Origin: a virus
Direction: 5' to 3' (one strand)
DNA length: 30,205 nt
Virus record (IMG/VR): IMGVR_UViG_3300028423_000092
Location: 1 to 30,205 of that record
Below the pieces are notes generated by a model. It had not been told where the DNA came from and searched no databases. It saw nothing but the letters and a program-made list of their open reading frames with translations. The translations under genes were made by a program, and so were the position numbers. This document shows positions 17,667-22,209 of the stretch, one piece after another (position 1 is the stretch's first letter; each line of letters opens with the position of its first letter).

Positions 17667-18095
17667 TCAGCTAGTCGTTAGATCGCCTACTGCCGTGCGA
17701 TACCGCACGATGTAGCTGCAGCTGATCACACCAGCAGGTTGATCGGCTTCGACAAGCTCAAAGTTCACCGTGTCAGGCTGCACGTCGATCGCATAGCCGC
17801 CAACGGTTAAGTCAGTCATCAGCCTGCTGTGCATGTCCTCAACAATCGCATCAGCTGCCTGGTCAGGCACCAGAGACCGCACGATCACGGCCACGCGCAC
17901 TGTCAGGCTCCAGTCCAGTGTTGGCAGGCTCGTGTTCTGCTCAACGTCATCACGAACAGGCTCCACCACCATCGCAGGCGACTCAGCCCTAGCCAATGCC
18001 GACACACGTGAGCGATAGATCCGCCCGCTGATGCCGGCTGTAGTCGCCAGCGTCGTAGCGATCTGATTCAGGATGCTCTCGCGTTTGGTCGTCAT
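17667..18095 (-). CDS. Tail terminator/completion protein (gpU-like)
   Basis: 142 residues beginning with a helix (ESILNQIATTLATTAGISGRIYRSR), then RAESPAMVVEPVRDDVEQN, strands (WSLTVRVAVIVRSL), a helix (DQAADAIVEDMHSRLM) and closing strands ending ISCSYIVRYRTAVGDL. This strand-helix layout and the "SCSYIVRYRT..gdl" ending match the tail-terminator proteins that cap siphophage tails. It precedes the tube gene, the usual order. A 45-nt gap with weak inverted repeats separates it from the tube gene. Confidence 0.78.
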   Translation of the reverse strand: MTTKRESILNQIATTLATTAGISGRIYRSRVSALARAESPAMVVEPVRDDVEQNTSLPTLDWSLTVRVAVIVRSLVPDQAADAIVEDMHSRLMTDLTVGGYAIDVQPDTVNFELVEADQPAGVISCSYIVRYRTAVGDLTTS

Positions 18096-18703
18096 CAGGC
18101 GCGAACCTCAGCCGCAACGATCCGACCACGCTTGAAGGTGATGTCTGTGGTGCTGCTGTGATTGGCGATCATCAGCGAGATCTCATCGCCGTCATCCAGC
18201 TCGACCATCCAGCTGGTCACCAGCTTGGCCTCCTGGGCGCCGCTGCCAGTGAAGGCACGGCATTCAGTTTCATCGATCGCGGTGCCGTTCTTGGCCAGCT
18301 TGATGCCAAGGGTGTTGTTGTTGCCATCGGTGGCATCGATGCTGCCGTAGATCCTGAACAGCTTCGTCGCGCCACAGTCGTTCTTCAGCCCGAAGGTGTC
18401 AGTGGTGCCGAGCACCATTTGATAGGCCGTGCTGCTATCAAGCGTTGCCGTTAGGCCTGTGCTGATGTAGGTACCTTGCGTCGTAATGTCGATCGTGCCA
18501 TCCGTCATCTTCGAGCACTGACCACGGATCGCCACGCCGTCGATGTAATAGCTCAAGCCATTCCATGCTGTGCTCCCATCTCCGATTTTGTATTTCCTCG
18601 TGTCTGTCTCCACCCCGATCTCGCCCTGCAGCAGCGTCGGGTTCGCCGCAGTCCACTCAGCGGCCGTGCCGTTGCGCAGCTTGAAACGGGTGTAAGTGGT
18701 CAC
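18095..18703 (-). CDS. Virion protein with Mtd-N-like domain and jelly-roll-like C-terminus
   Basis: 202 residues from a GTG at 18703 that overlaps the upstream stop as GTGA. The N-terminal 38 residues (FKLRNGTAAEWTAANPTLLQGEIG, then DTRKYKIGDGSTAWNGLSYY) repeat the domain also seen in the 9979-10527 protein. The C-terminal part (about 50-202) alternates strands with Gly/Thr turns (TLDSSTAYQMVLGTTDTFGL, SIDATDGNNNTLGIKLAKNG, MVELDDGDEISLMIANHS). This resembles the TNF/C1q-like jelly-roll knobs of phage decoration and fibre proteins. It lies between head-tail joining and tail terminator genes, an unusual spot for a fibre, so it may decorate the neck. Confidence 0.7.
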   Translation of the reverse strand: MTTYTRFKLRNGTAAEWTAANPTLLQGEIGVETDTRKYKIGDGSTAWNGLSYYIDGVAIRGQCSKMTDGTIDITTQGTYISTGLTATLDSSTAYQMVLGTTDTFGLKNDCGATKLFRIYGSIDATDGNNNTLGIKLAKNGTAIDETECRAFTGSGAQEAKLVTSWMVELDDGDEISLMIANHSSTTDITFKRGRIVAAEVRA

Positions 18704-19122
18704 GGCGCTCCGTCGTCCAGGACGTTGCCTTCAATGTAGGTGGTGTCAGGTGCTCCACCATCCATGGTCACCGTGCTAGTCGTATCGACGCCATCGCCGT
18801 CGAGCACTGCACGATCCGACGTGCTCTGCTCCGGTGTCGTGGTGCGTTGCAGCATGATCTCGCAGAATGCTCCATCGTCCATCAACATGACGGATTTGAC
18901 GGTGTAGGCACGTCCATCGACGTTGATGCCAGCGCCATATTCCAGATCGCCAAACTCGCTGGCCTTGCAGATCAAGCTGTAATCCGTGCTCAGCACCATC
19001 CCGCCAGCCACGGTTTCCGTTGGCATGTCCAGGATGCCAGTGCTCGACACAGCACCAGCCACCACCGGCACAGCGAACTCAGCCGTGCTCAGGAACAGAT
19101 CGAGATCTTCGGTGAAGGCCAT
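18700..19122 (-). CDS. Head-tail joining protein (FII-like)
   Basis: 140 residues. The opening FTEDLDLFLSTAEFAVPV matches the head-tail attachment group ("...dl..ff..~Fa..a....~"), followed by STGILDMPTE, DYSLICKASEFGDLEYGAGINVDGRAYTVKSVMLMDDGAFCEIMLQR, the characteristic strand pair ("i.v~g.~Y.V....dd~g~~~l.L"). The C-terminus is an acidic Thr/Asp-rich extension. Lies in the neck cluster, overlapping its neighbours by 1 and 4 nt. Confidence is moderate because the call is from pattern and gene order. Confidence 0.75.
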   Translation of the reverse strand: MAFTEDLDLFLSTAEFAVPVVAGAVSSTGILDMPTETVAGGMVLSTDYSLICKASEFGDLEYGAGINVDGRAYTVKSVMLMDDGAFCEIMLQRTTTPEQSTSDRAVLDGDGVDTTSTVTMDGGAPDTTYIEGNVLDDGAP

Positions 19123-19373
19123 CAGTTCAAGGCCTGCTCGATCTGCTCACGGCTGGCAAAGCCCCAAGCTGCAGCAGCTCCGGCATTCCATTCCTTGCGG
19201 ATCACCGGCTCCACGTAGCCAGTATCGCCAGGCTTGAGACTGCTGTCATAGTCGTCTGGATAAACCGCGTCATCGAACGTCACGAAATCGTTCAACAGCC
19301 CATTAAGAAAGGTCGTGCGCTCAGCGCTCGCCTCAGCATTCACAAGGTCGTCGATGGTGTTGATGATCAGCAT
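19122..19373 (-). CDS. Small structural-module protein (83 aa)
   Basis: 83 residues from ATG 19373, which overlaps the reverse transcriptase stop by 7 nt. An upstream in-frame ATG at 19439 lies inside the RT gene and was not chosen. The N-terminus is helical (IDDLVNAEASAERTTFLNGLLNDFVTFDDAVYP) and the rest is a Trp-containing segment with a C-terminal helix (WNAGAAAAWGFASREQIEQAL). No firm family. Neck-region phages often carry a small protein here. Coupling to the RT stop means the DGR cassette is co-transcribed with the structural genes. Confidence 0.65.
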   Translation of the reverse strand: MLIINTIDDLVNAEASAERTTFLNGLLNDFVTFDDAVYPDDYDSSLKPGDTGYVEPVIRKEWNAGAAAAWGFASREQIEQALN

Positions 19374-20341
19374 GATGCGGCAAGTCCTAGGTTCTTGAGT
19401 CCATTCTGGCCATCTCCGTGACGGATGTGGCCCATCCATGCTAATTGCGAACGCCGCCAGCCCTCATGGTCGTCATGCGCCAAGGCCAGCTTCAGCCGCC
19501 GTCGCTGTCGGATCATTGACTGCCGCTTGATCAGCTTGAACTTCAACCGGATCCGGAATCCGCAAAAAGTAAAGCCACGCCTGACTGGCACAAGGCTCCA
19601 TTTCCCAATCTTCTGCTGCATCTCAGTGGCAACAAACGCACAGATCTCGTTCTTTAGAGTCATGCCATCGTGCTTGTTATCCACAATCACAACTGCGTCG
19701 TCCATGTAGCGCACAAAGCTGCCATTGCCTTTCTGAGCAATGAAACGATCAAGCTTCCCGCCCCAATAGTTGCAAAAGCACTGGCTGGTCAGCGCACCGA
19801 TTGGCAATCCACGCGGCTGCACTGATAACACTTGCTCGATCAGCCGTAGCGTGCGCTGGCAGGTCAGCTTCTTGCCCAGATGGTCCAACAGCAAGCCCTG
19901 CGGGATGCTCGGGAAGAACTTGCTGAAATCCACGTGCAATAGCCATGCGTCTGGGTTCTGACGCATCAGCTGCTGCATCCGTGTGATACAGCGATGTGTG
20001 CCAAGCCCCACTCGACATGCGAACACCTGAGGCATCAGGGCCGCGTCAAGAATCGGCCCAATCACTTGAATCAAGGCATGATGAACAATACGATCACGAA
20101 AGCTCTGGCAAGCGATCGTCCGCTTCTTTGGATCAATAATATCAAACTGCAGCTGCGGGTCAGGCTTCCAGCTTTCCTCAATCAGACGCTGCTGAAGGTT
20201 GCGCAGATTGGCCAATGCGTACTCCTTGAACCGCAGGTAGGAACTGCTGTAGGTTTTGCCTCGCCTTGCCTCTGCATAGGCAAGCAGCAGATTATCCCAC
20301 TGATAGATCTGTTCGTAGAGATTGCGGAACTTCTTGCCCAT
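19367..20341 (-). CDS. DGR-type reverse transcriptase
   Basis: 324 residues with the RT palm motifs in order. LHVDFSKFFPSI has the first catalytic Asp at 138. RGLPIGALTSQ (177-187) carries the [IVL]GxxxSQ form of motif 4 that is diagnostic of diversity-generating retroelements; group II intron RTs read differently there. VRYMDDAVV has the catalytic pair at D214-D215. The C-terminal thumb is basic (RIRLKFKLIKRQSMIRQRRRLKL). The length is typical of DGR RTs, with no endonuclease or maturase domain. It should copy the template repeat RNA with adenine-specific errors together with the Avd protein. It is followed without a gap by structural genes, so it shares the late transcript. Confidence 0.96.
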   Translation of the reverse strand: MGKKFRNLYEQIYQWDNLLLAYAEARRGKTYSSSYLRFKEYALANLRNLQQRLIEESWKPDPQLQFDIIDPKKRTIACQSFRDRIVHHALIQVIGPILDAALMPQVFACRVGLGTHRCITRMQQLMRQNPDAWLLHVDFSKFFPSIPQGLLLDHLGKKLTCQRTLRLIEQVLSVQPRGLPIGALTSQCFCNYWGGKLDRFIAQKGNGSFVRYMDDAVVIVDNKHDGMTLKNEICAFVATEMQQKIGKWSLVPVRRGFTFCGFRIRLKFKLIKRQSMIRQRRRLKLALAHDDHEGWRRSQLAWMGHIRHGDGQNGLKNLGLAASC

Positions 20342-20496
20342 TGGAAGGTGACGGCAGGTTTCGATAAGCTACTCCCTGCCATTGCCACCACTCGGCCCTG
20401 AGTTTGCCGAAGCAGGAATTGATGGCTGGCACCTGATTAGCACCGGCCTGCTGCCCCATAGAAACAGCAGAGCGTAAAGGTGTTTGACAGTGGCCA
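20342..20496 (-). ncRNA. Spacer part of the DGR template RNA (Sp region)
   Basis: About 155 nt between the template repeat and the RT start, without a supported gene. In BPP-1 a spacer of similar size (about 140 nt) downstream of TR is required for cDNA priming and RT/Avd binding. Position and size match here. An 8-base palindrome GTGGCCAC marks the TR/spacer junction. Its function as part of a structured RNA is inferred from that analogy. Confidence 0.6.
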
Positions 20497-20613
20497 CGGC
20501 CGCAAAACGCGCCGAGATGTTGTTGTTCGCATTCGATGGAGCGTTGTTCCAGTTAGCACAACGTGAACCGGAATTCGACCCATTGTTCCAGTTGCCACCC
20601 AGGATGACGGCGC
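20497..20613 (-). repeat. DGR template repeat (TR)
   Basis: 117 bp, aligned without gaps to 21069-21185 (constant offset 572). 98 positions are identical. Every one of the 19 differences is a T on the plus strand of TR, that is, an adenine on the coding strand. 26 such adenines exist in total and 7 are unchanged. None of the other 91 positions differ. TR is rich in AAC/AAT codons if read in the target frame (NWNN..., NNN), the usual design that leaves many mutable positions. It lies between avd and the RT gene. The TR 5' end on the coding strand is 17 nt after the avd stop. Confidence 0.97.
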
Positions 20614-20630
20614 ACCCATCAACTCCAGCA

Positions 20631-21023
20631 TCAGTCTGATGCCTTTTTTGCTTTTTGCAATCGCTTAAGCCAACTGCCAAGCATCGCGCCAACTTCAGCG
20701 ATCAAGGCCTGAGCGGTTTCAAGCTGATGCTCAGTGAGCATCTTGCGCCTGTGATGCACCATGAAACGTAAGAGCAAGCGCAGCTGCGCGAGACTGCCGT
20801 CCAGCACGTAGCAGCGGCTCAACTGATTGGCCTTGATCGCAGTGTTCAGATGTTCGGCAACCAAAAACAACTGACGAATCAAAAGCTCACGAAATACGCC
20901 ATGCTTCCGTGGGATGCTTTGGGCGATTGGATAGATGTAGTCCACAACACGCTCATACTTCTCGACCATGTAGAGACCATGAGCCTCCTTGGAGGGATCC
21001 GCCGAGGCTCTTTTCTTGCTCAT
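20631..21023 (-). CDS. avd: DGR accessory variability determinant (Avd-like four-helix protein)
   Basis: 130 residues, almost entirely helical and basic: VEKYERVVDYIYPIAQSIPRKHGVFRELLIRQLFLVAEHLNTAIKA, then a second pair of long helices (LAQLRLLLRFMVHHRRKML, LETAQALIAEVGAMLGSWLKRLQKAKK). This is the Avd/four-helix-bundle layout, with the conserved "KxYxxvxxxxxxxxxxPrxxrxxLxxRi"-type first helix pair. Avd forms a pentamer that binds the RT and the template RNA and is needed for homing. ATG 21023 is used here, overlapping the target gene. ATG 20969, just before VEKYERVV and 14 nt after an AAGGAGG sequence, is a possible alternative start. Confidence 0.85.
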   Translation of the reverse strand: MSKKRASADPSKEAHGLYMVEKYERVVDYIYPIAQSIPRKHGVFRELLIRQLFLVAEHLNTAIKANQLSRCYVLDGSLAQLRLLLRFMVHHRRKMLTEHQLETAQALIAEVGAMLGSWLKRLQKAKKASD

Positions 21024-22209
21024 GATCGCGTCGGCGCTGTCGCGCCGCGTAACAAGTCACAAGGTGCCCGGCCGCAAAACGCGCCGAGAAGGAGTTGCTC
21101 GCAAACGACGGAGCGGCGCTCCAGAAAGCACAACGGGAACCGGAACTCGACCCACGGCTCCAGGAGCCACCCAGGATGACGGCGCTGTAACCCGACTGAT
21201 ACACATCGCCACGGTCGCCTGTAGCACTTGTCCAGCCACCTCCGGTGTTGCCCTGCACATCAGACCCCCAGGACCAAAGCGTGCCAGTAGACTGCGCCAA
21301 CCCCCATAAGCTCGCACGTTCCCAGATCACTGTTCCAGGGTCTGTGCCACGGCTGCCGTTCTCTGGTCCGCCAAAAGCTGCATGTTGGAACTCAAGCCAG
21401 CTGATCAGACGCTTACCGAAGCTGCTCGCTACCTCAGCGAAGTCATACCAGCTACCGGCTTCTTTGCTATCGACAAGGCTGTAGGTAGTAGTTCCATCGC
21501 CGCCATAAATCGCAGGGATCAGCGGCGGATTGTTCTCGTCAGCAATGGTCAGCCCGATTTTGCTGCTTGGCACTGCAGTGAAGTCAGAGCCTGCATAGCT
21601 GGTAGCACCGCAGAGATAAAGATCGCACCAGAACCGACCATCGACGCATGTCATGCCACGAGGATCAGGGCAGGTCGGACGCCAGGTCAGATCCCAGATG
21701 CTGTATTCAAGGATCTCAGCCGCTGCAGTAGGGCTGCCGCTATTCACTGCTGTCGGACGACCGCTTGGGATGTGGTGAAAGCCACCGACAATCGAACCGC
21801 CAGTGGCACCTGCAGGAGCACTAGTGAAGCTCGCATCAGCAACCAAACTGCCGTCTGTTGGATGCTGCCAGATTGCGTAGTCGATGTTGTCGGTGAAGCT
21901 GCCGGGCATTGTCACAGCCGTAGCTGTGTCATAGGCCACGCCATTCAGCACCGATCCAGCCGTAATACTGACCGCTGTAGAAGCTGTCTTGTAAAACAGC
22001 GGGCCGCGATGCAACACAGGGCGGCGGTTGAAATAGCCAATGGCACTTGCAAAGAGACGAAAGCCATCCCAAGTCAGATCAGCGGAGCCAGCCAGGGCGC
22101 CATTATCGTTGTACTGAACCTGCGTATCAGATCCGCCGGCTGCTGCATCAGCATCGTTACCTGTGTCATCTAGGCCGATGCCAATCAGCGGATTGAACTT
22201 GTAAGCCAT
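20953..22209 (-). CDS. DGR target protein, C-type-lectin-like variable virion protein
   Basis: 418 residues. The N-terminus (about 1-60) has GGSDTQVQYNDNGALAGSADLTWDG, a short motif common in phage fibres. The middle is a beta-rich region with GGFHHIPSGRP, YSIWDLTWRPTCPDPRGMTCVDGRFW and FGKRLISWLEFQHAAFGGPENGSRGTDPG. It leads into the CLec/FGE-like variable fold: LWSWGSDVQ, AVILGGSWSRGSSSGSRCAFW, ending NSFSARFAAG. VR covers about residues 342-381, and mutable positions map to Ser, Arg, Phe and Ala residues where TR has Asn. 37 further residues follow VR. As in Mtd, the variable face should contact a host receptor. Its position beside head genes leaves head or neck display possible. Confidence 0.88.
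   Translation of the reverse strand: MAYKFNPLIGIGLDDTGNDADAAAGGSDTQVQYNDNGALAGSADLTWDGFRLFASAIGYFNRRPVLHRGPLFYKTASTAVSITAGSVLNGVAYDTATAVTMPGSFTDNIDYAIWQHPTDGSLVADASFTSAPAGATGGSIVGGFHHIPSGRPTAVNSGSPTAAAEILEYSIWDLTWRPTCPDPRGMTCVDGRFWCDLYLCGATSYAGSDFTAVPSSKIGLTIADENNPPLIPAIYGGDGTTTYSLVDSKEAGSWYDFAEVASSFGKRLISWLEFQHAAFGGPENGSRGTDPGTVIWERASLWGLAQSTGTLWSWGSDVQGNTGGGWTSATGDRGDVYQSGYSAVILGGSWSRGSSSGSRCAFWSAAPSFASNSFSARFAAGHLVTCYAARQRRRDHEQEKSLGGSLQGGSWSLHGREV
21032..21047 (-). promoter_or_regulatory. DGR homing hairpin downstream of VR
   Basis: On the coding strand CGGCGC, GACA, GCGCCG forms a 6-bp GC stem with a 4-base loop of the GRNA type. It starts 21 nt past the VR end. DGR target sites such as that of BPP-1 have a hairpin/cruciform of this kind just downstream of VR that raises homing efficiency. 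Here it lies inside the coding sequence of the target's C-terminal tail. Confidence 0.75.
21069..21185 (-). repeat. DGR variable repeat (VR) with IMH
   Basis: The recipient copy of the template repeat, at the C-terminal end of the target gene. It aligns over 117 bp with TR, and all 19 substitutions correspond to TR coding-strand adenines. The 3'-most 21 bp (21069-21089), identical in TR and lacking adenine on the coding strand, is GC-rich and fits the initiation-of-mutagenic-homing (IMH) element. Beyond it TR and VR diverge. Confidence 0.97.

Follow-up and report, generated by a model that had tools for sequence, protein, structure and literature searches.

The window, an IMG/VR viral contig of 30,205 nt, carries on its minus strand (22209 to 19367) every part of a diversity-generating retroelement (DGR) of the BPP-1 type. 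Judging from the sequence, a Synechococcus siphovirus would carry this DGR in its tail module, complete and probably active, a reading to which we assign a probability of about 0.93. The element belongs to a well-known class, which has been surveyed at large scale (PMC8144416). A complete DGR with its parts in order on one strand was the original prediction, and all of these parts were located within the predicted span (Table 1), in a gene order (mtd-avd-TR-RT) that agrees with the BPP-1 annotation.

Table 1. Parts of the DGR cassette and its immediate surroundings, in window coordinates.
Feature	Position	Strand	Remarks
Target gene, Mtd-like receptor-binding tail protein (putative)	20953..22209	-	418 aa as read; relatives end at about residue 386
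VR, 117 nt, within the 3' end of the target gene	21069..21185	-	differs from TR at 19 sites, each a TR adenine
Unmutated G+C-rich 3' end of VR, at the position of the IMH element	21069..21089	-	21 nt identical to TR
TAC codon where relatives carry an in-frame stop	21049..21051	-	adds residues 387-418
Post-VR hairpin, 6 bp stem, GACA loop	21032..21047	-
avd, accessory variability determinant, 130 aa	20631..21023	-	matches Pfam bAvd, PHROG 3206 and solved Avd
TR, 117 nt, 26 adenines	20497..20613	-
DGR RNA 3' of TR, Rfam RF03022 Phage_DGR	20347..20473	-	76.7 bits
DGR RT, 324 aa, GLPIGALTSQ and YMDD	19367..20341	-	matches PHROG 1423 and solved BPP-1 RT
Part of RT that remains in S-CBS1 and S-CBS3, a stub of 47 codons	19367..19510	-	overlaps the start of the next gene
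Next gene of the tail module, outside the DGR	19122..19373	-	start codon overlaps the RT stop; from ORF listing

Differences between TR and VR

In the window, the 117 nt of TR and of VR form an ungapped alignment at 84% identity, and the 19 mismatches affect 19 of the 26 adenine sites of TR (7 A>T, 7 A>G and 5 A>C) and none of the 91 other bases. If 19 mismatches were placed at random among 117 sites, the probability that each would hit one of the 26 adenines is 1.9e-16. TR has no match elsewhere in the record besides itself and VR.

The same pattern is found for a larger set of 30 distinct TR/VR pairs, i.e., the window together with related contigs, where 475 of 816 adenine sites are changed compared with 25 of 2694 other sites. 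Pairs were retained if they had at most five non-adenine mismatches, so that the latter rate is a lower bound. The adenine changes lead to G in 249 cases, to T in 124 and to C in 102, and this excess of A to G corresponds to misincorporation of dC, which in the reconstituted BPP-1 system is the most frequent error (PMC12875486). The non-adenine changes are dominated by T>G, which accounts for 18 of the 25, and for 18 of the 20 changes at T sites. In eight of these 18 T>G cases the preceding base is an A, which is itself changed every time. T>G is also the commonest non-adenine change (18 of about 54) in 23 further pairs with uncurated alignment ends, mostly from more distant DGRs (L148–L185). 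Selection or older drift could contribute to the non-adenine changes. The 21 nt at the 3' end of VR are the same in TR and VR across all relatives compared. One TR departs from its closest counterpart: that of L033 (3229-3345) has lost five adenines (A>G) compared with the near-identical TR of L032, as though mutation, or conversion from VR, had altered it.

Identity of the proteins and the RNA

The RT matches PHROG 1423 (3.7e-86) and the solved BPP-1 RT (7.8e-69), the latter far ahead of group II intron RTs (~1e-16), and shares 38.5% identity with BPP-1 brt. Going by these profile and solved-structure matches, in which the BPP-1 RT comes out best by a wide margin, the enzyme appears to lie within the DGR RTs, as had been predicted. 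The Avd-like gene matches Pfam bAvd (1.1e-22), PHROG 3206 and solved Avd (1.7e-31), and the spacer between TR and RT (20473-20347) gives a full-length match to RF03022 Phage_DGR with 76.7 bits compared with a gathering score of 50. For target, RT and Avd alike, the best solved-structure matches are the BPP-1 proteins.

The target gene matches Pfam mtd_2nd (5e-21), the tail family PHROG 11262 (4.3e-131) and, over residues 71-384, solved Mtd (2.5e-53), with 41% identity to BPP-1 Mtd across residues 72-384. A target of C-type-lectin kind containing VR had been predicted, and this agrees with the homology to solved Mtd, from which the lectin fold is deduced; what the prediction missed, and the same match reveals, is the specifically Mtd-like nature of the protein. 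A structure prediction for the target, based on 18 homologues, had a mean pLDDT of 34.5 and was left unused. The N-terminal domain (residues 1-70) does not align to BPP-1 Mtd, whereas residues 71-384 do. A Pfam Mtd_N domain (4.8e-15) is found in a separate fibre gene at window positions 18095-18703 on the minus strand. On the strength of these domain matches, the Mtd_N domain in a nearby separate gene and the target N-terminus unlike that of BPP-1 Mtd would be the outcome of a domain rearrangement.

The hairpin and the lost stop codon

Both the IMH-like 3' end of VR and a hairpin downstream of it are present in the window. The predicted post-VR hairpin was located at 21047-21032, and its stem is supported by the relatives: among those bearing a DGR it reads either GGCGC/GCGCC or GGCCC/GGGCC, a switch that is a compensatory change. 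The loops in these relatives are GACA, GGCA, GCCA, GTCA and GTTA, i.e., GNNA. Other DGRs are known to have a GRNA loop, which fits most of the copies here; GCCA, GTCA and GTTA deviate.

In all 31 DGR-bearing relatives compared, mtd has an in-frame stop 5 or 6 codons past VR. The window instead reads TAC at 21051-21049, unique among the 32 compared DGR copies, and its mtd gains 32 residues that run across the hairpin into avd. The original reading of the target had VR and the hairpin in the right place and did not see this loss of the stop. The change could be genuine or stem from an error in sequencing, and might impair the protein; no other viral contig searched has exactly this sequence around TAC.

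Relatives and host

Synechococcus phage S-CBS1 aligns to 78% of window bases 1-25000 with 88.8% identity, and a cyanophage origin, as first proposed from the sequence, is thereby supported. The relatives suggest that the host is a marine bacterium of Synechococcus type. A scan of viral sequences with the RT found 42 loci at 77–96% identity, and a profile scan added a few more down to 69%, followed by a gap to a BPP-1-like remainder at 41% or less. In genomes of 84,980 species no relative of the RT was found, and no prophage or host was identified. From this distribution the RT clade looks phage-borne. Literature searches on cyanophage DGRs and on S-CBS1 and S-CBS3 gave no title or abstract in which the element is described; the original S-CBS genome paper may already comment on mtd, and the S-LBS1 paper mentions neither mtd nor RT.

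Mutagenic homing

Two contigs from one metagenome, L026 and L028, have an identical TR and identical sequence for 1.7 kb downstream, and are 99.6% identical over 700 nt upstream. Their VRs differ at eight positions, all eight at TR adenines, which argues that relatives of the element, here with an RT 81% identical to that of the window, are active. VR variants limited to TR adenines had been expected within populations, and that expectation holds in these near-identical relatives rather than in the present record. Identical flanks are found in two further contig pairs, whose VRs are identical too; one of these pairs is two copies on a single contig. L016 and L018, both on one contig of 58560 bases, are a pair of identical DGRs separated by about 40 kb, probably an assembly concatemer.

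The window copy itself is probably capable of mutagenic homing, as far as its sequence indicates. By analogy with BPP-1, the TR RNA and the structured part downstream of it would be copied by a complex of RT and Avd that misincorporates at template adenines, and the mutated cDNA would replace VR in the Mtd-like tail protein, steered by the 3' end of VR and the hairpin. Such a replacement would change the receptor bound by the virion.

Loss of the cassette

In the cultured phages S-CBS1 and S-CBS3, an 'orphan' mtd retains VR and the hairpin, whereas avd and TR are gone along with most of RT: the hairpin runs straight into RT at about codon 278, from where the final 47 codons follow. The hairpin arm CGACAGCG is repeated at the RT breakpoint, which suggests microhomology. 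Over 234 nt from the junction onward, S-CBS1 and S-CBS3 are 98.7% and 97.0% identical to the DGR-bearing L003, and the scar would therefore be young or spread by recombination. When viral contigs were searched for the exact S-CBS1 junction, the matches in mtd context were the S-CBS1 and S-CBS3 records only, so that this particular scar appears to be uncommon in IMG/VR.

Loss extends beyond these two phages. In a scan anchored on the target gene, RT was present in about 11 contigs and missing from about 20 that have room for it, counts that include near-duplicates and may be affected by assembly bias. The hairpin is retained in L072, L087, L090 and L101. Besides it, L072 has the start of avd and a stub of RT, L087 has a shorter RT stub, and L090 and L101 have no recognisable stub. 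Together with the S-CBS junction there are at least five different deletion scars, which argues that DGR loss recurs in this group. Other DGR-less contigs, L073 and L071 included, have neither hairpin nor stub. The VRs of L073, L071, L101 and L072 differ from the TRs of relatives mainly at adenines. As their sequences read, S-CBS1 and S-CBS3 are among several relatives that have a frozen VR and a scar; the original prediction recognised the complete DGR of the window and did not see that its cultured relatives are deletion derivatives.

The RT stub probably survives owing to the start of the next gene, which lies inside the stop region of RT; in relatives without the stub, matches to this gene start at or near its methionine. 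We also observed two tandem mtd copies in L090 (2785-4910), 94% identical upstream of VR and with different VRs; no RT was seen, and the hairpin is found 3' of the second copy only.

We tentatively propose, at somewhat less than even odds, that in this phage group the DGR is an optional cassette. Repeated deletions would remove it and freeze the specificity of Mtd, and their breakpoints would lie at the VR hairpin or close to it, and immediately ahead of the 3' end of RT, where the next gene starts. As part of the same proposal, DGR RTs may also make a second, less frequent kind of error, T to G (dC opposite template U), in many cases adjacent to a mutated A.

Alternative explanations

The direction of change could be the reverse, with the DGR-less phages ancestral and the cassette inserted beside mtd in some lineages. 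In favour of this, RT, avd and hairpin are all missing from many target-bearing contigs, where the target is directly adjoined by the next gene. However, S-CBS1, S-CBS3, L072 and L087 hold C-terminal fragments of RT, L072 also the start of avd, and the DGR-less VRs of L073, L071, L101 and L072 carry the adenine bias relative to the TRs of relatives, all of which makes the insertion scenario very improbable compared with deletion of an existing cassette; for contigs that have neither hairpin nor stub, either direction may apply. Another possibility is that the cassette is complete and inactive in this particular phage, the loss of the mtd stop having broken the target or disturbed translation of avd, and VR being a relic. 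The stop is lost in the window copy only, the 32-residue extension spans the hairpin and enters avd, the sequence around TAC is absent from other viral contigs, and loss of the cassette is common in the phage group. Yet all of RT, avd, TR, RNA and hairpin remain intact, a 3' extension beyond VR need not block homing, and the complete lack of non-adenine mismatches between TR and VR means that VR has scarcely drifted since the last homing event; we therefore consider inactivity unlikely, and less so than an insertion.

A further view is that TR and VR are an ordinary duplication, or a repeat of phage mosaics, beside an unrelated RT such as one from a group II intron or a defence system. Phage tail genes often contain repeats, and this RT is also matched by PADLOC RT models, but mismatches confined to adenines (p ~2e-16), the presence of Avd and the DGR RNA family, and a solved BPP-1 RT that scores far above the intron RTs leave this view with almost no credibility. 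As an origin of TR and VR, duplication or a mosaic repeat is refuted by the adenine bias across the 30 pairs.

Deletion of the cassette accounts for the presence in S-CBS1 and S-CBS3 of a gene annotated as 'major tropism determinant' unaccompanied by diversifying machinery: both are deletion derivatives. The finding is of more use for what it says about recurrent loss and about the orphan mtd in cultured phages, and closely related complete and deleted forms with cultured partners would allow a direct test of the value of a DGR to a marine phage.

Comparison with known systems

The BPP-1 DGR (mtd-avd-TR-brt) shares with the window its gene order, Avd, RT (38.5% identity), the adenine pattern of TR and VR and the spacer RNA, and it also has a post-VR hairpin. 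BPP-1 Mtd corresponds to the C-terminal four fifths of the target (41% over residues 72-384), whereas residues 1-70 are unaligned and the window has its Mtd_N in a nearby separate gene. The two phages also differ in host group, and the window target reads through its usual stop.

Closer to the window are about 47 IMG/VR loci with DGRs whose RT falls in the same clade (69–96% identical), which have the same cassette and architecture where the contig extends far enough, but whose mtd stop is present in 31 of 31 compared and whose VR contents differ, mainly at adenines. S-CBS1 and S-CBS3 belong to the same phage group and share the tail module, mtd with VR, the hairpin and the next gene; unlike the window they lack avd, TR and most of RT, of which the 47-codon stub remains. 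A bacterial parallel exists in Treponema denticola, where orphan DGR target genes persist after loss of RT and TR (PMC4891356). Targets are thus retained without RT and TR in both cases, but the Treponema orphans are bacterial (PMC4891356), whereas those related to the window are carried by phages, with breakpoints visible at the level of single bases.
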